Assembly: GCF_921293095.1 (NCBI RefSeq)
Contig: NC_060257.1
Location: 53,108,968 to 53,172,967, forward strand
Length of the DNA stretch: 64,000 nt
From: Ischnura elegans
Lineage: Eukaryota; Arthropoda; Insecta; Odonata; Coenagrionidae
Direction of reading: 5' to 3'
The notes beneath the pieces are model-generated. The model saw only the letters and a list, made by a program, of their open reading frames with translations, ran no database searches and had not been told where the DNA came from. This document shows positions 2,132-57,557 of the stretch, one piece after another (position 1 is the first letter of the stretch; each line of letters begins with the position of its first letter). Made by a program: the position numbers and the translations under genes.

Positions 2132-5100
2132 GTAAGTATCATTTAATTACCTTTTTTACTATCTCTGTAGCATAGATATAAAATAAAACTTGAATTTGTA
2201 ACATTAACAGGGGTGGTTTGGGGTGATTGGGAGCCCTCGGCTAGGCCTCATGATGGGGCCCTCCTTACCAGGGGATGTGGGGGCCCTCCCTCAGAAATGT
2301 TTAGGAAATTGCATGCCCGGAAATGGATTTCGTCTCTCTTTTGGCTCTTGAAAACAATATAAAAGTAATTAGTAGCAATTTCATTAGGGAAAATAAAACT
2401 AAAAGTGAAAATTTCACTGTTAATAAAGTTTAATGATTTTTTATGGTTTTTTAACCCTTAAAATAACCCTTTCAAGAAAGCATCATGTTCTCTTTTATCT
2501 TCTGACAACTTTATTTTATTTATTTTTCATATGATCTTTTTAAACTTAGTGTATTACAAATAAAGCAGCCAATGACAATGTATTACTTTCTAATTGCAAA
2601 AACCTTTGGCTTAATTAATCTGAGTCTTTTTATTACACCTTTCATGTATGCTTCACGACAGAAGCTAGCGTCGTTAGGGAAATCACAGAGGGCCCCCAAA
2701 GCTTAGGGCCCTCGGCGATTACCGACCTGGCCAGTCCGCCCCTGAATATTTAGTTCTACTCTTCAAAGCCACAGATGTTGGGGCTACCATATCATAGGCA
2801 AATTACGCCTAATATCCCATTTGTACTACAAAAAATTTATTGTCTCTCTCTTATTTTTTATGCTTATATCAGGTAGATATAAATTTATTAGATTTGACTG
2901 TTTCTACATGCTTAAATTTCTCTCTGCCCCACTCTCCATGACGTGACGGCGGGACGTGATCACAGATACACGTCCTGCAGTAGTTGCAACCTGGTAACTT
3001 GTGCAAGACGCGACTATGTGGCGTGGTGCCTGATAGTGTAGCTTCGGACATCGAGTGGTGGTTTTGAAGCATTCGTGCAAACCACTTTTCTGTATCCATG
3101 ATCACACAGCCACTGATGAGTGGTTTCAGAAACCAGGCCTGACATGGAGCATTAATAATACGAATACAACCATGTTATCGCTGCTAAAAAGATCGCAAAC
3201 TGGCAAAGAAAGCTCTCAATGAGTCCGGGAAGCACTCTTAAATAACAGAATAACTGTATGAATAATAATGTATTGTTTTTTTACGTAAATTATAAACATT
3301 ACAAGACATTTAAGAGAAATTTTGGATTATCCGTGTTTTCCGATTATTCGTGCCGTCTCTCCCCATCATTAGCCCATATTGAATAGGGTAGTTTCCTTCA
3401 TCAAAGAAAATGAAAGGCATTGATTGCGATTCGTTACCCACCAATAGTGTATTCATAATACACAAATTATTTGGTTTTTGAAATCCCGGTTTAGACGAAT
3501 GGCAAGGGTCAAATTTTATCCTCATTTGAAAAAGGCCAGATTGGCGCCCATGCGATTCCAATCCACGTGACATCACAGGGACCTAGTTTCTACACGAGAG
3601 GATAGGAGTTTTACATCGTCTGAGGTTACCAATGCATGCATGAGGCACAGAGCTCAGGGAAACATGTCTTAATAATCACCTATTAAAACTGGCTAAGGTC
3701 GGAAAGTTTTCTTCGTTTGATAAGGTATTAATAAACCTTTTTTAAGCCAAGCGCTACCAGCCAGCAAGGTACTCAGCTACCCGCTAGCATCCTGCGTCCT
3801 ATCAGCGCTCAGAGCCTCGATCAAGGTCACCTCACAGGGCGGGAGGGGGAACCAGAAATGTGTGGCACGGACTTTTTCCCATCATTCCTACTTAGCCGTC
3901 GCATTTTCGCGTGCTTGAAATTTTTCACTTTTCATTTAATCGCGAAAAATAGATATCGTCATTCGAAAATCTAAGAGCGTGAAATACGTACTCCAGAAGT
4001 AATAATCTTTCGATTTTGGCAATACAAAAATAATAGGAAACCACCCTATTGGTAGTGTACTGTAATAATCTTTCAACACATAATATTATAATACATAATA
4101 TTCAAATAAAATTTATCAATTATCTCGAGTTTTTTTACAAGTTATTACATAGTTAGTTATTACATTATATAAGAGTCATAATTATTATTATTTATTATTA
4201 AAGTTATTAAAATAACATATTTTAATGTTATATAACATATTATTATATGTAATAACTATAACGTTAATAAAGTCTTTCACGCAATAATAATTCAAAATCA
4301 TTAGCATTATACATAATGCTTTATATGTTAGCATATAATTGCTAAGTGCTAATAATAATGCTATAAAGCATTATAATGCTTTATATGTTAGCATATAATT
4401 GCTAAGTGCTAATGATAATGCATTATATGCTTACAGTCCCAAAACTTTCCAAGTTTTAGGTTCTCTTCCTTAGAATATGATTCAATCAAGATATTCTCTT
4501 CCTCATTTCCTGTAGATACCGTCCCACAGTGCTCAAAGCATTGCCTAGGTTACAAAAATTGGACAATGTCGCAGTGGAGCCGGAAGAGGTCCAAGATGCA
4601 ATGAGAAGAGGCCTCGACCTTTATCATCCGGAAGAGCAACAGCCTCCCACTCCCTCCGAATACGAGAGCACAAACACTCCGAGAAGAAAAGCTGTAAACC
4701 ATTCTCCCCAGGCATCCCCTTCAGACTCTCCACAAGGGTCCCCGGAACAGTGCTGGACACTCAGGCCAGAAACACCCGTTCACCATCACCAACAAAGTCC
4801 CAGCAATGGACATGAGGTAAGAAAGTTTGTTTTTGGGATGATTGCTCGGGCCTTGAGATGCACAAATTGGCTAAAAACATAAAAAATACTAGCATTAAAA
4901 TTCCAGTTTGTGTTCCTTTTGAGTGTTCCTCTAGTATTATCATGGCGTGGTGTGTGATTTTTGGATAAATTTTACTTTCTTTGTTTTCTTAACCAATTTT
5001 TATTACATCGATGATTATGTGCTAATGAAGATTTTTTTGTTTTTTATTAAAAATATGTACCTTCGTTGTTATTTTTGAATTAGGTAACAGATGAAAATTT

Positions 5101-32100: not shown

Positions 32101-35100
32101 GTATGAAAATATTAATAAGTTTCAAACATAGTAACTACAGTTTCTTTTATGTTTCCTTAGGACAGCTTCTATTTTTTTATTATATTATTATTATCCCATG
32201 ATCAATAGCAAATAAATCAGTTTGGATTATTTTTATCTTTGTATGACATGCTCTCTGTCACTTTCATGATTTTAGTGCCATACCATCTTAGTTCACTACC
32301 TTCTTTTTTTAATTTTGCTAGCGATATATCTTTAGATACCTGAAATTAAGTGCGAAAAAAAATCTTTTCAAGAACCCTCTACATTTAATGCTATTACTTA
32401 TTACACAAAAGAAAACAAACATAATGAAAATGGGACCTTATTAAAAATCTTGCGTATGTTTTAAAGCATCTTGGGGGAGGGTAGTGCCCCTCTCTTAATT
32501 TGCCTTTGGTGCAGCTCCAGTTTTTATTTTATTTTTTCATTATTATACTACTTTTTTAATCAGGGATGCATTAAATTGATGTATCCCATGACATGTACTA
32601 TGGCTTCAGAATGAATAAATTATTGTCCATTTAAATCAGTGTGGTTTTCAGGGTGAAGAGGAACAGCAGCACTATGAGAGAGTTTGCAGGCAGCAAATGC
32701 AGCAATCTCAGCATCAAAGACCCACTGGCTTGCATTTGCAGTCTTCTGGGAAGCCGCCGTCGAGCCGCTCAAATGCTGGGAGGCCAAAAACTAGGGTGAG
32801 ATTTAAGTTTTCGGGTTACCGACATAAGGCCCGACGACAAAACCCCCTGAGGACATAAGGCCCGGCAACAAAACCCCCTGAGGACATAACGCCCGGCAAC
32901 AAAACCCCCAGAGGACATAACGCCCGGCAACAAAACCCTCTGAAGACATAAGGTCCGGCGACAAAATCCCCTCGACAAGATCGCCACAAAATCTGTGACA
33001 AAATCGCCACGGGGATTTAGTCTTGGGCATTTTGTCGCCACGGGGACTTTGTCTCAGGCATTTTGTCGCCGGCGGGGTTTTGTCTCAGGCCTTTTGTCGC
33101 CTGGAATTTTAGGAGCAGGCCTTTTGACTGTGACCCTGAGGTTTCAGCTAATAATAATTTTATTCACCATGATAAATGGCGTACAGTCGAACCTTGATAA
33201 ATAACTGTTCAAAGGACTGGCATTTTTTTCTTGCTTATGGAGGTTTCTCACTTACAAAGGTTTCGGAATGAACTCTCTCCGTTATAGAGGTACATACAAA
33301 TAAGGAAGTGGGGGGAGGAGAGTGCTGGGGAGCCACAGTTATATACAGGTGGTCCCCAACTTTTGCACTCAATGCGGTCCTGAAAATGTGTACGGAAGAC
33401 GAATGTATGAAAGTCAAACTCCATAGAGTTTCATACTAATTAGGAGTTAATTTCCAAAAGAGCGACATATACATACTGAAACCTTATTTTTTGCACAGAT
33501 TTTATTTTCATTATCCAATTTTTAATAATAAATCAATAAAATTCCCTACATTATATAATGTCTCTGCATACGCAGAAAATGAAAATAAAAGTTAAAAGAC
33601 AAGAATTCTGTTCGATACCAAGTGAAACTTCCTCTCGGTGTTTAAGTTAATACTGCACTTATGATGTCCATTATAAATAAGAAGACATCAGGAAGCATAA
33701 TAAAATGCAAATGCTGAACCCTCACTCTGAATACATTTAAATTTTGCACCAAAATTCCTCGGCCGGTGACATCTTGTCACAGCGTATCTCAGGGTCGCAT
33801 ATCTTTCGCATGTTATTCAAAAAAGACGTGCGGAATTCGGATGATTTTTCATGCAATATCATTGCTGAAGGTGTTGAAGAAGAATTTGGAACACACGAAA
33901 GTGTGAATTGTAATAAAGTCGAGGACCACCTGTACTTATTATTTATGTAATTATCTATTTTAGTAAAATTAGACATTGCAATATTTCCACTGAGTTTTAT
34001 TATGATACTACGCGTTTCATCGTTATAAACAACATTATCAAAGTGCTTGTAATGACGAAATGCGTTGTATTATAATAAAACTCAGTGGAAATATTGCAAT
34101 GTCTAATTTTACTAATATTAATAACTTCCAATAAATATCGTGCCTCACATCATACAAGACAATTATCAGCAGCCTCTTTATAATTTACAATGTTTAACTT
34201 AAGTAATCAGTTACTGTCTTTAAAGATTCTCTTTAGATATTATTTAAAAAATTTTTGATCACGTTTTTCTTATCAAAAATTGTTACCTTTTTTAAACGAC
34301 TCTACAACAGCATGTCTCGATTCACTAGATTCGAAGATGCAACAATGGAAACTTCTCCAACTTCCTTCGAAAACATATCACTGTCTTCCTCTTTTTAAAT
34401 TTTGTTAAAGTGTTTGTTAGGAATTGATAGAGTCATGAAGCATTCTCTTAAAGCCAAAGTTAATTGAGTGGGTTGGAAGCCAAGGGGTACAAGTGATTTT
34501 TTTTTCTCAACGGAGTTAGGTAAAGTTAATTGTTAGAATAAATACACAAAAACCTGGTTGTCCAGGGAAACGGCTGAGTCTCTGTTCCGTGCTGACATCG
34601 AGTGGAAAATCAAATGCACTACTAAATATCTAATTGATCTCATTTGTTTTCTGTAGCTAATTTCTGTACCTAAATCTGTATAGAAAAGAGAACTCACTTG
34701 TACCTCTTGGTTTCCAACCCACTCAATTAAAATGTGTACAAATTCAAAATTTGAGTGCAACATAGGTTTCTCGTCATTCCATTTTGAGTCCGACAGCGTG
34801 CACATAATTCCCAGTCTGCCAAAAAATCTCTCACTTAAAGAATGAAAGGGGGTTGGGGTAATCCGGTAATTAGCCTCACTTCAATAAATTAAACGAAAGT
34901 AAATTCGACCACGTTTATTACGAAGGTAAGTGGTACAGATGCTCTATGTCTCTCACGTGTGGAAGTCCTTCTCCGTTGCCGTTTCGTCAGCGCCTCTCTC
35001 TCACGGTGCCTTCCTGGCGCTAGGTTCCATGTACCCTGGTGGTGGCAGCAAGGACCTCAGGGTCTCAGGGCAACGGCCTCAGCCAGGTGGCTGGCCTTGG

Positions 35101-39490: not shown

Positions 39491-42400
39491 CAGTAAACTC
39501 TTGATTTTACGAAGCAGGATTTTACGAAGTTTTCGATTATACGAAGTGATATTGCGGTCCCGGTGAAAAGCCTATGCTAAATACATGGCGCTATTCGATT
39601 ATACGAAGTTTCGATTATACGAAATTTTTTGAATTTACGAACCTCGGCTCGGTCCCTAGGAACAAATGGCATTCGTTTATACGAACTACGGCGAAAAATT
39701 TGTCAACAAAACTAGTTACGCCGGCGTAAGTAGCTAAAAAATCAGCGCTTCCAACTGTGGTCCATCAAAAGTGCGAAATCGTAAATGATAATGCAACTTT
39801 GGAGAGAAATGGGTCGCCAAAAACCTCACTGTGGGAATTTAGGGGGAGTAGGAGTTCAGTTAAAATATCGCGGCTGACATTATGCCCCTATTTACGTGCC
39901 TGTTCGTAAACATAGCATCGACAATAATTCGTAGTTTAACATGTCAGGAAGGTCGCGCGGAGTATTTCGTACACCCCTAATTAACCCTTTGCACTGCTGT
40001 GAACGTACTTCGAAGACTACTTGACTACTTTTCGCCGAAGCACTTCGAAGGGTCCCTAATCCGGGACCCTTTCCTCGACGAGCTCACCCTCGCTGGCCCC
40101 TGAAACTGGGCTATTTTTTAATGCATTACCTGACGCAACCCTGGGTTTCAAAGGGCAAAGGTGCCATGGGGGGAAAAAGAGTAAAGTGCGTGTTACTGTG
40201 GGGCTGTGCGTCAACCAAACGGGCACGGACAAAATAAGCCCGTTGTCATTGGGAAATTTGAAAGGCCACGGTGCTTAAAACATGTAAAATTGGAAGCCCT
40301 CCCCGTTTTTTACCATGCAAATAAAAACAGCTGGATGACCCGAGAAATTTTCCAGCAAACAGTTATACGTATACAGAGAAAAATTGCTGGAGAGAACAGC
40401 AAAATTGTTTTAATAATGGATAATGCCACCGTTCATAAATACGTGGAAGATCTAAAATTGGCTAATGTTCGAGTCCTCTTTTTACCCCCGAACTCGACTA
40501 GCAAGTCCCAGCCCTTGGACCAAGGCATTATCCAAGATTTTAAAGTCCTGTACCGGAAGAAGCTTGAGCGGTATTACTTGCGATGGATCGGTATGTATAC
40601 ATTCATCTATTTTGCTCATGTGCGTTTGGATATCGATTTAGATATTTTTATTCATGATTATCATTCTTTCAAATCTATTTGCTACTTTTATAAATGGGAA
40701 CAGAAATTAATAACATCCCGAAATGGACGTTGATACATGCAATCCACGCCATAGTATCTTTTCGTGTATGTATTGGCCTTTGTGAATGAACAACTTAAAT
40801 ATCTTAAGTATTGGGCTCTATTTACCGCCAATTTATATTTCAGGCTTCTCGTAATGAAGACGCACTTCCAAGTCCAACCATGAACTTTCTTCTCACGCGC
40901 TTCCCCGTTCTCCCATGCTGGGGTTCTGTCTTTCAAAAGCCTTTGTCCCTTCCCTCCTGCCGCCTTTGGCTGATCTTGCTGACACCCAACTTACGCATCC
41001 CAAACCCCTCCTTCCCCAGCATTTCCCATTCACTCCCTCCCTAAGGTGACTGAGCTTGTGTGCGTCGCAAAAAATACGGCCCCCAAAAGTAGACTGAGGC
41101 AGAGCTGAAGGCCATTTCCCCACCCTTCTTTGTCCTGCCCCCTTCACCAGTCCTTGTGATGACCACACTTCTTCCCTCAGGCAATCCCCATCCCACTCTT
41201 ATTCACCCCACCCACTGGGAACGTTCCCCGATTGTGGAGAAGGGCATGGTTCATCTTTACCTGCAACGGGGGGAAGTTATTAACCGGAGAGAGGCGGAAG
41301 AAGTATCTTCCACTATCGGGAAAATGGTGCCGCGCTTATAATTGTCTCTCTTCTTCTCAGCTGACTTTTCAATTGAAATTATTTTCTTTGCTCTTTCCAC
41401 ACTATATTTATTTACGATTATGGCGCGACTATTTTTTAGTGCTAAAACTAAGAAAATCTTTTCTCTATGTCAATGATCCTTTGCATAACTTTCAATACGG
41501 CGGAGAAAGGAACACGAAAACTAAATGAGGTGACGGTACAGGTTTTTGCGTGTCATTTTTTGGGAATTCACGCTAGTGAACCAATACTTAACCACGCTGG
41601 GAAATGATAAAACGTCTCTTATAGGAAAACAATCAATGTGGATAATAACGTTTCTATCTATATTTCTCCGATACTGTAAGATGTTTCTCCTGTCGTTTTC
41701 CGGTTGGAACCTTGCTCCTGTCGGCATAAAAGGAGAGAAACATACTATATGAACAGGTCACCTCACACCCGGTATGAAGAATACAGTCCTGATGAAGAAT
41801 TAAGTCTTTTATGGCAACGTCTGCGAAGATGATGGAACACAGTAGTCGGACGGAGAACTCAAACAGAATTTACTTCAAATATTCGCCAGAAGATAATCAC
41901 ATCCTACGTTATTTATGATCGTAATTGAATCTCAGTGAAAATAGAGCACATTCTGCTGAAAATACGATGTAACTCGAAATATTAACTTACGAAGGTTATT
42001 TTGGAAACGGGCTAAGACCCTTGTTTTTCTTTTTTTCTCGTCACTGAGCGATAGAGGGCGACATAAATGGCGGTTAGGCCGGCTGCCGCTAAAATTCCGT
42101 GGGTGTCAGAAACAAATATCTACCTTCTGCATACTTAATAGTAGCTATTGGCTCCTAACCACAAATTTATTACTGTAAATTCTTATAATAAACATTGCAA
42201 TTCATTATTTGATTACGTTTTCTAAACTGGTCGGGAATTTCTTTAGCGATCGTTGATGTTGAAGTATGAACAAGAAATGGGAATTTTATGGTGGTATAAT
42301 TATTTAACGATTTTTCACATCATAAATCGAGAGCAAAAAGCCTTTTCTATGAATTATACCGAGAATAACCACCGAAAACATTTAAATAAGACCACTAAAG

Positions 42401-46301: not shown

Positions 46302-49300
46302 TCAAGTTGTTTCATTAAGCTTTCTTTGTAGCATCTCACGAACTGTAGTGTTACCAACTTTTGCATCATCAACCTTGCCCAGATTGTTTTCTCCAATGAC
46401 AAACTTAGCTACTTCATAACACTTGTAATAGGCATTTAGATCATCTTTGCGTAATACATAATAGAAAATATTTCCCCAAATTCTTTGGCTGTAAAGGAGA
46501 ATGGCACTCACTTGTTCCTCTGATAGATATTCTAACATCATGGCTACAAAACATGAAATGAATAAACTTTTAGTCTTGCCACTTCTACCATCATATAACA
46601 AGAATGGAAATTGATCATATATCCAGATAAACTCTTCACTAAGCCGAGTAATCAGCTGCTCTTTGCCCAGTATACTGGATTCAAGTCTCAATTGACGCCG
46701 GAGGAGAACAAGAAATAATTTTAAGTGGATGCCTTCAATCTTCCTCTGATATTCATCCAAGATACCAATGAGATATCCATCTTTATCTGATCTAATGAGA
46801 TCAGCAAATGGGAAAGACTGGATAATAGGCAGTATAAGTTCAAATTCTTGTTCAACTTCTGAAATAAATCCCTCCTCCTTATTGTACTGGTCCAAACGTT
46901 CAAAACAAGAGGGGGCCAACCAAAGGTAATAATTTTTCATGTTTTTGAGAATTTCTTGAGAATCCAAGTCTGCAGATATCAGGAATTCTTGAATTTTAAA
47001 TAAGTACCTCGGGGAGAAAGTGGTGTAAACTGATATCAAATAATGCCAATCATTCTCATCAACCATGTTTAGCAAACGGACAGCATCACTTCGGTCAAGA
47101 GATCCATTTGCGACAGCATCACTCACACAATCCAGCAAACGGTCTGCTTTCAACATAACTGAGTCCATTGTTCTGCTGAAACTCTCAAACAGATATACCC
47201 TGAATTCCTCTCGAGTCATTTCCTCTTGGCATATAATCCAGACGAAAGGTAGAACTTCTCTGTTCTCCCAATTAGCACATGCAGAGTATATAGCATTCTT
47301 TCCTCTACCATCTACAGCTTTCAGAACTCTGATCCTATCTTCCTTTGTCTCTAGCATGCTCTTCAGGTAGTTCCACATCTTTTTCACATCCTCAACTCCA
47401 CAAGTTTGGAACACATGACACCAACCTTTTAGCACATTATTCTTACTTGCAATGAGCTTAACTAAAGCCGGTAGCTCAAATATTGACTCCAAAAACTGGA
47501 CCAACATCTCAAAAAGAAAAACAGCTCCATTTTGAAAAAATCCATCAGAACGATCCTCAAATATTTTTGACTTCAAGGCATCAGAAAGATGTTTTTTATT
47601 TCTTTCAAAGAAATTAAAGAGGAAACTGAAATACCCTCTACCTTTTTCACAACTCCATAGAGAGAACTCATTGAACCCCATCCATGACACACCCTCCTGA
47701 GAAATAACCGATGATAGATTAACAGCCAAGTTACGTTTTTCAATTAACTGCAACAATTCAGTGAGATATTTGAGATAGTCTAGCTCAGAATGTCCACCTG
47801 ATTTGTATTCTGAAGTATTCCCAACATTGCTGGGATGATGTGACATCTCAGAATATGTGATCCCCACTTTACCTCTAATACATCTTCCACAAAACGTAAA
47901 AGCATTCCAATGACCATTCTCATGAATCACGGGGAACTCCAACATCTTGATATCCCAATCAGCTTGACAGAACATGATATCAATTAGGAGATCCTTAAAG
48001 CTTTCAGACAAAAACTGTGTCACACCGATATGGCACTCAAGTATAGACATGTAAATACATTTCTGAATGGATTCCACAAATTGTTTCTCCATACTTTGAT
48101 CATCAAATTTCAGCCTTTTTAATAGAGGAGTTTTTTTCCCAACAGATTGCTTAGCCTTAGCTTCTGATCTTGGTCCACACTTTAATACCAACATACTGTT
48201 GATGAACTGCCGAACTTTATGGAATTGCTTTTCTAACAACACCTTCTTTAACGTAACTTTTGTAACTTTCTTTTTTTCACACTTCTCAAGAAGCCAAAGT
48301 GAGAAGATGTATTCACCCAATGTCCTATGAACAAAAACAATTGAATTTCTTATCCTTTCAACCAATCCTACTAGAAGCATGTCTTGCACCTTATCCTCAT
48401 CCAATTCGAATTCTTCATCACCTAGGAAATAATATGCAGAGAATTTCTTCAACAATTTATACATATTGTCCTCAAATCCTCTATCCCTAGCATCTCCCAG
48501 AACACTTGCCTTGCTCCTAAGCTTCTCTCTGCTGTACATTTTAACCTTTATATTCACATACTTATCATACAGCTGAGGTGGATTGAGAGATTTTTCTATT
48601 TCAAAGTTCTCCTCAAAAACTACGTAAGCCAACATCCACGCATGAAGTGGATTTTCAGAAAAATTGACTTCATCTTCAACAGCTGACTCCCCCATCTTTA
48701 TCAATTGATCAGCAACTTCATTAAATTCAATTATGCAATTTTTCCCCCCGTTGGACAAACATGTAAGATCTTGATGAAGTTTAGAAAATGATTGTCCTCT
48801 TCTTAAATTGTCAGTGGTCTGCAGAGCTGCAACAATATTTTCAATTTTTTCCTTCCTTTCATCGAGGGACAAGCCGCAAAGAGAGGCATTCCATTCTAAG
48901 TTTAGGAGTTGAATTTGATCCCCATGGTTGAAGGGCACAAATTTATATGCAAGGGTTGAGAATTTATCCTCCATTTCTCCAGCTTCATGCACACGGGTTG
49001 TAAGACACATTTTGACATTGGAAAAGTTCTTGAGAATCCCTACAAATTCCCCAACAATATCCCTGTAAGTCGGACAAATTTCATCAAAGCCATCAAAGAA
49101 AATGAAAACCTTGTTTCCATTGCGGAAGAAAAGTTGAAAGAATTTTTCCTCGATCTGATTTTGTGAACCAGTTTTCAGCAGGTCATAAAGTAAATCTTCC
49201 ACAGAATCCTGAGATAAACATTTCTTATTCTCCCACACCTTGAAGCTGTCTTCGAAGAGTAAGAGCTCTATCACATCAATCCAACACTTTCTATATTTTT

Positions 49301-51093
49301 TCTTCATTTCTAGTGCCATCTTATTGACAAATACTGACTTCCCACTCCCGGGTGCATCTGCTACCAATAGAACTTCATTTGGTGTAGCGTCACTTTCTAA
49401 CAGACTCACTCCTGAACACTCAAATGCAAATTGTTCATTTTTTAATAAATGCCTACAGTTTATAGAACCTATGAGGCAATAATCTCCATGTATTAATTCA
49501 AAGAAATGGACAAAATGCAACTTCCCACCCCTCTTACTGTTCCAGTCAATGATCTCCGATATCTCCCTGAATAAGTTCACACTGTGGGCAAAATTATGTT
49601 CTCCAGTTAAAATAAAGCAACGGGCATCCACTGGATTTTCCTCACCTTTCCACAAGTAAACTGGTCCCACACCTACATCTTCTAAATCTTTTCTCCTAGC
49701 TTTGGAGATGAAGAATGCATCATCGGCTCTCTTTACGAAGGTATGTCTGTTGAACTCAATTTTACTTAGTACTAAGTTGCGTTGTATAAAACAATTGTGC
49801 TTATGGAGAAGTTCCTTCACTCTTTTCCCCAGAATGGTTTTCAATGGCCTCCCAATTTCAATAGTTCCTTCATCTATCAACTTTGACAGTAATTCTGCAT
49901 CATGCTTGAGTTCTGCATCTTTCTCAGATAAAGTTTCTAGAAGATCCCTTAATTTCAACACATCCCCACCAAAATATAATTCTTTTTCCAATAAAAATCT
50001 TTTTGAGCCCTCAGACAAGTCGTTCCAAGTGTAATTTACACAAGATATACTTTTTGGAACACGAACCTCTAAAGGCAGAATTAAAATCAAACTTCGTCGA
50101 ACTTCTTCTCCGAAAGAATTACGAATACATTTTCCAGAACAAAATTTACTTGATCCACAAAACCAGGGTTTCTCCTTCTTATCCCAAACAACGGCCAGGT
50201 TTTTAATATCATTCTTGCGCACGCCTATTTTCAACATGCTGGTATCCTTTAAATACCTCGTCCAGTCAACAAACATCACATCTTTCAGTGACTGCCGCAA
50301 GTGGCTGACTCCCAACTTCAGATTTGATACTTGAAACACTTGAAGGAGATTATGATGGGAAATCTCATGGGTAGAGAAGGATGAATTCACTTGAATATCA
50401 TTGTCACAGTAATCTGACAGCATTGCGGTATTCAGCCAGTCATCATATTTGTATTTCCCGGCAACAATGTTCCGTTTTATGTAGTCCTCCAATTCTCCCT
50501 GAACCCTCTCATCATAGAAACGCAGTAGCTCAGGGGCCTGTTTTACCAAGTGGTCCATCCCATTGCCTATTGTGCTATCTTCATTACTTTGTGTATGATA
50601 TTTGGACATCATTTCTGGCACCCTTACTATCAACTCATGTTTCTTATTATAGCCAGCAGCCCTCTGAATGATTGGATCACAATCACACAATCTCTCATCT
50701 GATAAAACTGTTTCAACGACATATTCGTACTCCTTCTTAGCCTCACCATCATCTTGTCTGTATGGAAGACCACCATTTTCGAATACAAGGGCATATGCCT
50801 TGTGCGCACACTCATGGGCCAGATTGCTAATTATGCCCCGGTGCTTAAATTCCTCTGTTTCCTTTGCAGCCACATATATTCTGTTCACCTTAAAGTTTGT
50901 CAATCCCCAATTTTGGCCATGTTGAAAAGGATGTATACCATGGATATTGGAAGATGAGAAGTCGAAAATTATTTTCAGAGAAGGATCATCTTGAAGGCAC
51001 TGTAGAATGGTTGAGCAGTACTCCTCTTCATCTATTTCTGTGAAGTATTCCATCACTTTCTTTGAGCATGCCTTGATATCCACTCCTTTGTAT
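46302..51093 (-). CDS. large exon: HExxH, NACHT and C-terminal half
   Basis: 4792 nt, one uninterrupted frame. Acceptor tgtttttctatcccaatag; the first base completes the glycine codon left open by the upstream exon, then YKGVDIKACSKK. The frame is also open upstream of the acceptor to an ATG at 51116. Stop TAA-type codon at 46304-46302. A coding exon of this size without introns, beside genes with long introns, is unusual but is common for NLR exons and for retro-derived genes. No frameshift or stop is visible, so the gene looks intact and under constraint. Confidence 0.9.
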
Positions 51094-54000
51094 CTATTGG
51101 GATAGAAAAACACCACAATAATTTCTTTAGAAGATAAAAACGTTTTTCTAACATTAACAACAAGAGAACTGGTGGTTTCTGGTGATACTTAGAAGAATTT
51201 GATGAAAATTTTGAATGATTTTTTGTCATTAATCCACGTAAATGGTTTTAATGGTTAATGTAATCCATTAAAAAGATGGCATTAGCCATCAAAACCATTT
51301 TTGCGATTTAAATAAAAATTTCTGTAGAAAAACATACAAAACAGTTAATGAAATTAAAGAAAGTCTTCCGAATTAAAAAATTACAACCAAATAATGTTGA
51401 TTCATATGGATGAGGCTTTATATAACCCTGAACTTAGCCACGGGTATGTAAATTTTCACACAGTCATGGTAGGGAAGCCGGCTCCCTAACTCAAGTTGCC
51501 CCAAGAGGATTTCTTGGGGACATCAAAAGATTTCATACAGGAGCCTTCAGTTAGAAATCTAGTACATACTAGCAACGATGCTACCACTCCAGGGTTCCCA
51601 CTCTACTTGAATAATGAAATTCACGGCTTTTTCCAGGTTTTCACGGTTATTTTTCAGATTTTTCACGGTTTTTTTCAGGTTTTCACGGTCCGTTAATAAG
51701 CCAACAATAAGAAAATCACTGGCCGTATATGAACAGAAAATTAACGTACGCGACAAACGCCGTGAACGTTAACGCCGCAATGAAAAGTGATATCTGTTAT
51801 GACGTGATCTATCGTTTGCAAAATTCAGGGCCGACAAAAGGACCAGCCCAACCGCGCTCTTGCCTGGACGCCGAATACCCTTCGGACCTTCTTCCGTCCG
51901 GGCACCCGAGGACCTTTTTTAATTCCTCGCCGAGAGATAGTTTTTTGCGCACGTTGTTATTACTGCACAGTGGCCGAATTTCCCCCACCCCAATCTTTCT
52001 TATTTAACGGAAAATATTTTATTTAAATTGTTTATAGAATATAATAAATTGATTCTTTCTTATTTAACGGAAAATATTTTATGAAAATTGTTTATAGAAC
52101 ATAATAAATCGAAAAACAATTTCATACACCGTATTAGCTCAATTCTAAGACGAACACGATTCTAAGACTACCCTCCTTTTTTGGAGCTCCACTAGGGGAA
52201 TTTTTTTTTCCTAATAACGAAACGATAATAAAATGAATGCGGAAAAACGATCAATTCTTTATTTTTTTGCTAGGTTGCCTATGTCCCAGGAAACGCAGGA
52301 TTTTGGCGAGTAATTAAGATATTCATCAAAGGTTTCAAACAATATTTTAGATAATAACAGGAATAGTAGTACTTTATCAAGACACAAAGGTCATATTGTT
52401 GATTCGACCCATATCTCTTTCAAAATTCTGAAGGAAAACGCCACCTCACTAAAAAAAAGTTTGCTCTCCACTCAGCATTTACACTGCTATTATGGATTTC
52501 AGTCTGATATAAAAATTCATATCCATCAAACACCATTTCCAGTACATGTATTCACGAAAGCAATGTGCATGTTGTGCCTAAAACAACCGCATTCGCCGGC
52601 GCAGTGACTGGTTGTGAGATAGATGACGAAGGCCAAAAATAGTCCATTACTTGAATTGTTCCTGTCTAATGAATATATTTTAAATATAATTCAGGTAGTG
52701 TTGTGTTACTTTCCCACGGCACTGAGCTTCTCCCAATGGTAGTTCCATCCCTTGGGAAGATTACAACTATGTGCTTGTCGTTATTAGCCATAAATGACAC
52801 ATTGTATTTATTTCGTCTCATTTTCGTCAAACGATGGATGCGGGAAAATTATGCGTCGGAACCGCAATTATCAAACGATCAATGCGAGAAACGATACTTC
52901 GGGGAACGATATATGCGGGAAAAAATTACATTGTCTATAAGGAACTTTATTTGGGACCAGAAACGGCGAACGATCAATGCGGGAACGATAGATCGAGGTT
53001 CCACCGTATAACTTTTCTTTTGAAAGCGGCAGTGTAATGACTTCTTTCCTCTGCTATCGTAATACTCTGAAACCAAAACTGAATCGATTTCTCTAATCAG
53101 AGGCAATTCATGTTCCCTTCATACTTTTGCTCTGGAAAAAATGGAACGACTTTTGTAGCAGTTTATATCGCGACGGCATTGAGGCTTTAACGTTACAATC
53201 CTCGGCGGGCACGGGGGCACATTCCCCCCAGACACTTAAAAAATATGCATTATTCTGAATACGGTCATATTATCATTGCGCTCGTTTTGTATCATGAGGT
53301 ATCCTTGTGCCCCCCCCCCCCAGGAACAAAATCCTGGATACGGCTTTGCTTGTGCTCCCCCACTCCCCAGAAAGAAATCCTGGATCCGCCTCTGGTTAAA
53401 ATTTAGGTAAATTGTAATCAATCACACAAACATTTTGTAAGTTGATCAAGCTCTAACTTGAATGGAGCCGAACCCAGGGTAAAGCAGGCGATCTCGCGGA
53501 CACGGCAGAAGTGCACCCGGCGATTGATTGGCACGCACGCTTTACCTGCTGCCTAAAATGGCAATAGTTTTTCACTTAAACACAAAATTAAATAAGCTAA
53601 ATTACAGTTCAGGTATTTTTGACGTTGATTTTTCGTTGTATAGCTATATATATTAGGTGACAAACTCTAGTATTCATAATTTTTCCTGACGAAAATTATG
53701 CAACCCGATTGACGTCGAGAATTTTGCATTCGATTGTAAGACGAACCCTCTTTTCTGCAGGAGTTAGGAGGAAAAAATACCTTGTTAGGTTGATAGGTGC
53801 AATTAGGTAAATTATAATTCACTTGGTTTGAAATATATAAAGACATAAAAAATACCTGCTGAAACATGTTATTTTCACTTTCACTTTACTTTATTACTCG
53901 TCAAATATTTCCACACAAACTTTCCGGTTGCGACGTAAAACTGGCAAGTCCCAGGTCGACGCATGCGAAAATCGTGTAATGCTCTGTTGCCATAAGCGGA

Positions 54001-57000
54001 AATCTTCTCTCGTTTTCAGGCCGCAACGCGCGAGAATTAGTTACGTCGCGCCGAAAGCTCGCTGTCGCCCGGTTCAAACTCAGGGAGCGTTATGTCCACT
54101 AGTGATGGGTCGATCATGAACGATTCGATCAAAAAGATTGAATCACTAGGTGAATCAAATGACTCATGATTCATTTCGTTAAACAAGTCGATCATCAATC
54201 ATCAATCACTCCGAATTCCGGTATCATATCAATCATCCCGGTTTCCGGTTTATTTCAAAATTTGGAACGATCGGTGCTTGATCTCTTTTCGACAGGGCAG
54301 AAATAGTTGTGAGAAAATTAAATACTATGTTATAAAGAACTGAATACTTGTGTAATCTTTTTCTTATATGTTTTCCAACAGTTATAAGTATTAATAACAC
54401 CAATACACGTAAAAGGAAAATATTAAGATGACTCTTAAATTGTAGGAGAACGTTAAGAAGTAGAAGTTAAAGCTGTTAACATTTTACTGTGCCGTTAATA
54501 AAATTATCCTGCAGATCAGATTCATGGGTGTGGTGTACTTAGTGTTATATTTTGAGATATATAGTTAGAAATTCTTCTATTAGTGTTAAGAAACTGTGGC
54601 AGTTTTGCCTTCCCAAATATTTTCATGACTCTACTTCCTTCATTTTTGCAATGTAATTTACTGATCTAGTAAATCACAATCAAAATAGTATATGAAATGA
54701 TAATATGGATAGCAATCAGCGTTACCAATGATCTTCGCAGATGAGGCAGTATTTATTCGATTATTCAAAGTGATTTATTACATCCATTGATTGAGTCTTG
54801 TCGATCTTGATTCCTTTTGAGTCTTTTCGATCATGATTCCTTTGAGTCTTTTCAATCATGACTCTTTTGAGTCTTTTCGATCTTGATTCATTTGAGTCTT
54901 TTCGATCATAATGATTGAATCATTTATGTGACTCGAGTCAAAATGATTGAATCACCAAAATGATCGACTTTGCCCATCACTAATGTCCACAGCGAATAGC
55001 AGGTTGTCAAGGTTAGCGGTCTTCCAATCAGAGGATTGAGGGTGTTGAATATACGTTCAAATTTTTCGACACAAATGCCATCTAGATTTAGTTTCGAAAG
55101 CGGTCGCTGCAGCCAGTGGGAAGCCTAATTGGATGGAAGGGGGACTTAGGAGTGACCGAGGGAGGGGAAACCAAGCCAGTCGAGGAAAGTAAACAAGCTG
55201 ATGAGAAGTGGTGTCATATTTCAGGAGGGGGGGAGAGAAAAGGCCTGCCCTGGGGAAAGATGTTTTTTTTCTTCAGGCAACATTCGTTCCCACGCTTTTC
55301 TGACCCATGCGACGATGCTCGCCACAATGAATAGACGTGCGCTGGCTACGAACGAAGTTGAAAATTTCTGGGAAGGTATTATTATCAAGATTGAGAGATT
55401 TTTAAGGTTTAAGGACGAAATTCACGGCTTTTTCCATGTTTTTTCACGGTAGACGAAATTCACGGCTAATTCACGGTTTTAAGGTTTTCACGGTTGAGTG
55501 GGAACCCTGCACTCTCTCGTAAACTAATTTTGAAAATTTATCAATGCAATAAGAAACCATAGATATACTGACAAGTGTGAGATATTGAACACCCTTTACT
55601 ATGTCCGAATATATTCACAAATTATTAATTTATTACATTATTAATTAAAATTTATTAATGATATAATTACCCTTATTTTATAATGTTTTCTGACCTTTTT
55701 TTCAAGTCTTTTCAATATATTCCAATTTAATTTAGACATTGGTGTATCCAAAATGATTGGCTGCTTTGTCACAGTACTCTTACCCTTGAACCTTGCCAAC
55801 CAACCTCTCCATAGACCCAATAAATGACCCTTTTCCCACAACTGTCTATATATCTACCCTCCCATGTCCAACCCCCACTCTTTCCTTCATCCCCTCTCAG
55901 ACTATGCCCCGAAGACCTTGATAAAAGGACGAACTTGATAAAATATGATGCAATTGAGTATACTGTAGTGAAAATGTAACACTTTGTGCGGAAATAACAT
56001 TTAAGGAAACATTGCACAATATATGATTTAATTCGTAGTTTTAGAATGGTAGGAGATCCAAAACCTCTTTCATAGAAAAAAATTTGAGGGTTACTCTTTT
56101 ATCAAGGTCCAATTGGTCACGGAATATAAACCATGGTGACAATCAAATTATGCTAATAGCAGATATTTTGTGCTGGTGTGTGCATTGACCATATCACGTA
56201 GCAATAGTTAGATCTGAGTGTGCTATGAGCACTTATACTTGCCTACAACAACAGTGTCTCCCCCCACATGAGAATGTGCTGTATTTCTTCATGATGAGGA
56301 GTGAAATTCTACCGAAAAGCATCAAAGAATGAGTAATGTGTATGGTGACACTTTCATGAGAGACAGTGAAGTGAAGCAATGGTTCCGGAACTTTAAAATA
56401 GGACTTCCATGATGCATACCTTCATGAAGAACTTGAGTGTCAACTGATTTCTTGTCCAGCAAGTGGATCAGGTGATTCAAGAAGATAGTTGGTCCAATAT
56501 TGAGGGCTAGGCTCCCTCAGATTTTCATCTTCTTGCTAAAAGAAATCCTACCTAAAAGGGTAGTGTTATGGCACAGACAACAGCAGACTGAAGACCAGTA
56601 CAGAGAGGGGATTCTACAATGGGGGTTTTGGAAAATTATTACCATGGTGAAAAAGATGGCTATGTTGGAATGGCGAATATATAGAAAAGTAGCTGAACAG
56701 TGAAGCTGAATGTTACAAAAAATCATTTTTAATTTTTTCTTTGGTTTTGGGTTCATGACTGATCAGATCTTAAAGAAAGAATAGCCCCTAGAATCCTAAC
56801 TATTGTATTACCAAACACTCATTTAAGAACTTACCCATAAACCTGAGACTTGACAAACAGTTTTTGTACATGACACCCTTGAATATCCACAAAATGATTT
56901 CCAATGGCATCAACAAAAGGTTTTTCAGGTTCTATGCTTCTCGCTTTGGTTCTCTCTCCTTCTGAAACATACTCGAATCCCGCAGCCCTCAGCATCGCCC

Positions 57001-57557
57001 AGGTGTTGTACTTTTGGCTTTCCAGAGCTGCACAGAGGGCCGACACACCATTCGAATTGATGAAATACCTGGGGGGATCACATTCATCTTGAAACGTCTT
57101 CAACATCTCCTCCACATACTTTGTATCTTGTTCAACAATAGTCTTATGGAAGCTGTCCCTCAGGTTGAAGAAATTACTCAGACCTTCATGTTGTAGAACC
57201 GCTGACTTGAACTTATTCACCAGATTCTCATCAGCCAAAAGACTCGGCAGTAAGGAGTTGTGGTTTAGAAGTATGTGCATTACCTCTGGGTGGTTCCCCA
57301 CGAAAGCATAGTCAATGGACAATCTTCTTCCATTGTCAAGAGAATTGACCTCAGCACCACAATAAAGGAGGAGTTCTACAGATCTACCGTCACCAATCTT
57401 AGCAGCATTCATCAATCTAGTAGTCCCAGAAGAATCTATTCTGCCATTGGCAAGAAGATAGGTTTCTTGAGGGACAGTCAGACTTTTCTGCCCTCGAGCC
57501 ACATCATGCTTCAACCCCAGCAAATCCTCCAGCTCCTGCAGATTGTCCATGGTGGGC
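46302..57557 (-). CDS. Ankyrin-HExxH-NACHT protein, 1835 residues (NLR-like STAND ATPase)
   Basis: Two coding exons, 57550-56835 and 51093-46302, join in phase 2 across a GT-AG intron. Domains in order: ankyrin repeats (residues about 43-101 and 133-195); a zincin-like region with HECAH at 332-336; a family-specific middle part (about 560-800); a NACHT NTPase with P-loop APGSGKS (819-825), Walker B FFDGFDE (904-910) and sensor LTTR (about 936-939); then about 850 residues of helical sequence without LRRs. NACHT proteins are oligomerising NTP switches, often immune receptors; HExxH suggests a zinc peptidase. From memory, similar layouts occur in poorly studied arthropod predicted proteins. No signal peptide or clear membrane segment, so probably cytosolic. 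Function, ligand and peptidase activity are inferences. No AATAAA was seen on the - strand in the 900 bases after the stop. Confidence 0.85.
51993..52110. repeat. 60-bp tandem duplication, two copies
   Basis: The unit tctttcttatttaacggaaa and onward repeats exactly 60 bases later (lines starting 51993 and 52053) with a few changes. Purely non-coding, AT-rich. Confidence 0.85.
52800..53010. repeat. pogo-like subterminal repeats
   Basis: Several copies of an aacgatcaatgcgggaa-like word (around 52829, 52875, 52900, 52970) end in gatcgaggttccaccgtata, which looks like the right end of a pogo-type element at a TA. A similar word occurs near 52235, but no left end was defined. Confidence 0.45.
54100..54982. 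mobile_element. hAT-like element with perfect 8-bp target duplication
   Basis: Starts TAGTGATGGGTCGATC and ends GATCGACTTTGCCCATCACTA-type sequence; flanked by perfect atgtccac (54092-54099, 54983-54990). 883 bp, no transposase. About five imperfect units of 25-26 bp (ttgagtcttttcgatcatga) lie at 54785-54910. Its end sequence is similar in form to the hAT-like element at 35270 (TAGGGATGG). Confidence 0.9.
56180..56720 (+). pseudogene. mariner transposase relic in the NACHT-gene intron
   Basis: + strand frames give VYGDTFMRDSEVKQWFRNFK, the mariner N-terminal block (YGD....VKRWF.EFK), then ISCPASGSGDSR-like and a 67-codon tail without clear catalytic motifs. Frameshifts and stops throughout. 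No terminal repeats identified; limits are approximate. Opposite in sense to the host gene. Confidence 0.55.
56835..57557 (-). CDS. exon with start codon and ankyrin repeats of the NACHT gene
   Basis: The - strand shows acceptor ctagtattttttgcag, exon start at 57557, and ATG at 57550-57548 in the strong context CCCACCATGG, chosen over the in-frame ATG at 57577 because that one lies in the intron. A 5' untranslated exon is therefore expected further upstream, not identified. 238 codons plus two bases. Ankyrin consensus words are TTRLMNAAKIGD, VELLLYCGAEVN and, later, GVSALCAALESQKYN. Donor GG|GTAAGT at 56834. Confidence 0.83.

Follow-up and report, generated by a model that had tools for sequence, protein, structure and literature searches.

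The window analysed here, a stretch of 64,000 nucleotides spanning C12:53108968-53172967 of the 1.72 Gb genome of the damselfly Ischnura elegans, holds on its minus strand what its sequence indicates is a two-exon gene for a protein of 1835 residues that combines ankyrin repeats, a putative zinc peptidase, an NLR-type NACHT switch and a long C-terminal tail. Its features, in window coordinates and residues of the joined protein, are as follows.

56835..57557, minus: exon 1, with the ATG at 57550; residues 1-238 and the first two bases of codon 239; encodes the ankyrin part
57257..57436, minus: best ankyrin stretch, residues 39-98; Pfam Ank_2 at 30.6 bits against a cut-off of 27.3, E 5e-7
51094..56834, minus: intron between exons 1 and 2
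46302..51093, minus: exon 2; final base of codon 239, then residues 240-1835 and the stop
50469..51092, minus: zinc-peptidase domain, residues 240-447; modelled fold like the anthrax-lethal-factor/PPEP (M34) catalytic domain
50802..50816, minus: HECAH (HExxH zinc motif), residues 332-336
50634..50636, minus: E392 of ELIVR, putative third zinc ligand from conservation in the aligned family rows
49428..50468, minus: alpha/beta region between peptidase and NACHT, residues 448-794
47775..49427, minus: NACHT-HD1-WHD-HD2 module, residues 795-1345
49335..49355, minus: P-loop APGSGKS, residues 819-825
49080..49100, minus: Walker B FFDGFDE, residues 904-910
48327..48329, minus: H1161 in FVHRTLGEY, winged-helix histidine from the family alignment
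46302..47774, minus: C-terminal helical region, residues 1346-1835, from modelled secondary structure

Gene model

Joining 57550..56835 to 51093..46302 gives an in-phase frame of 1835 residues whose sole stop is the terminal one, across a junction with a GT donor (GTAAGT after 56835) and an AG acceptor; exon 2 itself lies in a stop-to-stop frame of 1628 codons (46302..51188, minus). The initial annotation had read two exons and an intact frame from this locus, with ankyrin repeats, HECAH, APGSGKS and FFDGFDE in that order, and both readings were borne out, the motifs falling at residues 332, 819 and 904 and the Ank_2 match in exon 1. No signal peptide was evident by eye in the joined protein. 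Position 57557 is the first base downstream of TTTTTTGCAG, which is acceptor-like, and the ATG at 57550 lies within CCCACCATGG in a good Kozak context; the two together make a 5' untranslated exon upstream of exon 1 likely.

Three catalogued paralogues, P0002, P0003 and P0004, align to the joined protein from the ankyrin part across the junction and on through the peptidase and NACHT (P0003 stops after NACHT), exon 1 matching their N-termini. Two observations weigh against the model: the catalogued protein of the locus, P0001 (1583 aa), begins at model residue 253 and lacks exon 1, and neither AATAAA nor ATTAAA occurs within 1 kb of the stop codon. We nevertheless regard the two-exon gene as real, because at least 28 related loci exist in the genome, paralogues align across the junction and comparison with a tandem copy points to purifying selection. 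A chance open frame was rejected, given 1628 open codons and 28 related loci.

Peptidase, NACHT module and tail

Structure prediction placed an ordered domain around HECAH, as the initial annotation had anticipated; the model has the M34 catalytic-domain fold, and M34 heads the structural ranking. To read conservation we aligned 15 database proteins with 30 damselfly rows, namely this gene and, for 29 loci, the longest frame of each. HExxH is present in all 27 Ischnura rows covering the column (26 loci, L032 and L036 being overlapping pieces of one; the locus at C6:13070948 was left out) and in all 14 of the 15 non-Ischnura proteins that cover it, the fragment P0009 (778 aa) not covering the site. 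The E392 column is Glu in 26 of 27 Ischnura rows and 14/14 others, making E392 the probable third zinc ligand; at L027, where the site falls outside the longest frame, reading by hand showed both HExxH and ELIVR. The sole Ischnura row without Glu in this column comes from C6:81343865-81350211 (L031, L035), where the match is split into several pieces.

Likeness to M34 peptidases (the catalytic domain of anthrax lethal factor (LF), PPEP-1 and PPEP-3) lies in the overall modelled fold, in the HExxH and downstream Glu kept across the damselfly family, and in a Tyr which 34 of 38 rows have at most nine residues upstream of that Glu, with a spacing that varies, and which may correspond to the Tyr of M34 enzymes. 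As for differences, identity is 10-12% among the LF and PPEP rows listed, and the damselfly peptidase belongs to an animal protein, in one chain with NACHT. M34 is absent from the 18 Pfam families matched by 19 family members at E <= 10, and LF and PPEP chains are absent from the 47 PDB sequences matched by profile search at E <= 10. A table of 2012 gives this peptidase class for bacteria only (PMC3482391). Kinship to the toxin protease, as modelled, concerns the fold only. The domain is thus best described from its model as an M34-like fold carrying the residues expected of a gluzincin, and from this we infer protease output, catalysis included.

The NACHT profile scored 25.2 bits in the exon-2 protein, just below the cut-off of 26.7, and 29.9 bits at the locus in a genome scan, above it; the modelled fold has the NBD-HD1-WHD-HD2 arrangement typical of animal NLRs, and the NLR-type NACHT of the initial annotation stands. 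Of the zincin and NACHT profile searches that it had suggested, the NACHT profile passed its cut-off in the genome scan; for the peptidase, SprT-like scored below cut-off and M34 went unmatched. The switch residues are strongly kept: K824 of the P-loop in 23 of the 24 Ischnura rows that cover it and 15/15 others, and D909 of Walker B and H1161 each in 24/24 and 14/15, H1161 being what we take to be the counterpart of the winged-helix histidine of animal NLRs. No LRR (leucine-rich repeat) family appeared among Pfam matches at E <= 10, filters removing most weak matches, and no CARD, PYD or death domain was found, the exon 1 matches being ankyrin families and one DUF (E 0.11). Because neither LRR nor death-fold domain was found, the protein is, by its sequence, not a classical NLR.

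Residues 1346-1835 are modelled chiefly as helices. Mean pairwise identity, taken over 19 near-full-length Ischnura rows (with 136 of the 171 pairs entering for ankyrin and C-terminus), is highest in the NBD (0.42), followed by the peptidase (0.40) and the ankyrin part (0.38); the middle region, HD1 and WHD lie at 0.32-0.37, and HD2 (0.26) and the C-terminus (0.27, residues 1371-1800) are lowest. The ankyrin part and the peptidase are thus conserved to about the same degree, and HD2 and the C-terminal half diverge most, which, by analogy with other STAND receptors, argues that the tail would be the likelier recognition surface; of the two sensing surfaces originally proposed, the C-terminal half gains from this comparison and the ankyrin repeats lose.

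Family, tandem copy and selection

A search of the damselfly's own genome gave 37 matches (30 of 195 candidates scored), merged by eye into at least 28 loci, a paralogue count that had been named at the outset as a check. Seven loci (L011, L014, L015, L016, L019, L020 and L022) are single open frames of 1842-1930 codons with HExxH 337-346 residues from the frame start, about as in the joined protein, so the intron is not common to all family members. Of 16 NACHT-profile matches in the genome, 13 fall by coordinates within family loci, two lie in long frames without HExxH in the stretch read, and the last in a frame of 213 codons that BLAST did not match to the damselfly protein. Two long NACHT frames, L051 (C11:101311500-101319500) and L052 (C11:101931500-101939500), both of 1833 codons with identical starting residues, align to the damselfly protein only over parts of residues 889-1204 and have no HExxH in the stretch read; they are perhaps a peptidase-less sister group.

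A tree of 39 of the 45 rows (six left out for short coverage), rooted with every row from outside Ischnura, groups the Ischnura copies in a single clade with support 1.0. The relatives found outside Odonata were one Chironomus riparius protein and the fragment P0009, and a search with the peptidase part of the former yielded three Chironomus tepperi, one Bradysia coprophila and nine metagenome proteins. By eye, the Chironomus riparius protein P0008 has a second, degenerate NACHT-like stretch (residues 660-810) ahead of its main NACHT. The catalogued Ischnura elegans paralogues P0002-P0007 are all named "uncharacterized", and carry Pfam labels for ankyrin in 6/6, NACHT in 5/6 and the peptidase in 0/6. 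The similarity searches thus identify the gene as a member of a large family with relatives in Diptera and not as a lone gene.

Some 36 kb from the gene lies a tandem copy in which the two exons and the two splice sites are preserved and whose exon-2 protein is 94% identical. The copy belongs to a segmental duplication in which window 45276-63148 matches C12:53189500-53209499 (L039, L040) in pieces 88-97.7% identical; its intron is shorter, window 51589-55510 (about 3.9 kb) going unmatched there at E 1e-30. Near the exon-1 start the copy is out of frame, and for this reason it may not make the same protein. Over residues 30-1835, which excludes the part where the copy is out of frame, the synonymous and nonsynonymous rates (dS and dN) are 0.068 and 0.025, a dN/dS of 0.37 (Fisher p 5.7e-10; 0.43 with residues 1-29 included), indicating purifying selection on the gene as seen against its copy. 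By part, dN/dS is 0.44 in ankyrin, 0.41 in peptidase, 0.37 in the middle, 1.10 in NACHT, 0.23 in WHD and 0.24 in the C-terminus, with only the middle, WHD and C-terminal parts individually significant. The NACHT part has 27 nonsynonymous to 6 synonymous changes against 80:66 elsewhere (p 0.005, in a test chosen post hoc), an excess that may reflect relaxed or diversifying selection.

Proposed mechanism and its rivals

We consider it somewhat better than an even chance that the protein is an NLR-like switch, opened by a ligand, whose ATP-driven oligomer activates or concentrates its own protease. At rest, the switch would hold ADP, with the winged-helix histidine contacting the nucleotide and the protein closed. 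A foreign or stress ligand bound by the fast-diverging helical tail would open it, and ATP-driven oligomerisation would then cluster or uncover the peptidases, whose targets would be one or a few proteins of host or invader; the ankyrin repeats would dock a substrate or a partner. Such an output would need neither a CARD/PYD adapter nor a caspase, and an immune role is what we infer for the damselfly protein. More tentatively, and with rather less confidence, we suggest that an old and expandable lineage of NLR-like proteins persists in insects without classical NLRs and acts as a one-protein inflammasome: a sensor tail, a NACHT switch and a lethal-factor-fold zinc protease that itself cuts a signalling target, neither adapter nor caspase taking part.

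With animal NLRs such as NLRC4, NLRP3 and NOD2 the damselfly protein shares the modelled NACHT-HD1-WHD-HD2 module, the P-loop, Walker B and the winged-helix His, and differs in having a peptidase and ankyrin repeats where those have LRR and CARD, PYD or death domains. Bacterial Avs-type STAND proteins carry an N-terminal effector, a central STAND NTPase and a C-terminal repeat sensor in a single chain. This layout is parallel to that of the damselfly protein, and Avs4 is among its structural matches; the damselfly NACHT module, however, ranks nearest animal NLRs, and ankyrin is added. No PADLOC family matched the exon-2 protein at E <= 10. An antiviral role is reported for another arthropod NACHT protein, shrimp LvNLRC, for which the text available to us describes no peptidase (PMC12370184). 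Among the matches listed and in the open-licence literature, we found no description of an ankyrin/peptidase/NACHT protein or of a lethal-factor-fold peptidase in an insect NLR, and a study of arthropod gene fusions via horizontal transfer mentions neither NACHT nor lethal factor in its main text (PMC13389597). The parts are known; their combination, conservation and copy number appear new.

The strongest rival, which we judge unlikely, makes the peptidase a bait or regulatory domain: pathogen inhibitors or proteases, or self-cleavage, would release the switch, and output would pass through partners. NLRP1B is an animal receptor switched by proteolysis (PMC7857732), and the peptidase here sits between ankyrin and NACHT and not at the extreme N-terminus. 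Yet the expected catalytic residues are kept almost everywhere in the rows read, more than a pure bait requires, although an autoprotease would likewise need them.

Less probable again is a partly decaying or selfishly multiplying family with no present function at this locus. The broken frame of the tandem copy, the 5 of 28 loci whose match contains a stop and the NACHT dN/dS between the two copies speak for this and against the switch we propose; the intact 1835-codon frame, the overall dN/dS and the family-wide retention of catalytic residues oppose it.

Least probable, by a shade, is a non-immune STAND protein in which NACHT regulates a SprT/Spartan-like peptidase that acts on DNA-protein crosslinks or in protein quality control: SprT-like is the most frequent weak Pfam match (14 of 19 members, best E 5.9e-5), a resemblance near HExxH that counts against our proposal, but the damselfly protein itself scores 13.6 bits against a cut-off of 25.6, its third conserved residue is Glu where SprT peptidases have a His zinc ligand, M34 leads structurally, and the family is a large, divergent lineage expansion.

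If the protease is the output of the NLR-like switch, arthropods would possess an NLR-like lineage whose effector is itself an enzyme, in a manner comparable to bacterial Avs proteins, and would offer a tractable system in which to find a trigger and a cleaved target. Should the one-protein inflammasome prove true, animals would be using, as an immune effector, a functioning relative of a protease fold known from a bacterial toxin. A review states that D. melanogaster and C. elegans are without NLRs (PMC7308585), which fits the remark in the initial annotation that several insect lineages lack classical NLRs; the damselfly genome, in contrast, has at least 28 NLR-like family loci.

Elsewhere in the window, a 182-codon frame at 40185-40730 on the plus strand matches the DDE_1 transposase (E 4.6e-26, profile positions 18-139 of 177) and is probably part of a DNA transposon. 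A 133-codon plus-strand frame at 4481-4879 looks by eye like the end of a leucine-rich-repeat protein and is possibly an exon of a neighbouring gene; it has no Pfam match, and its best PDB match is dynein axonemal light chain 1 (E 0.027). At 32821-33101 two 31-base tandem arrays lie close to each other, and their units differ.
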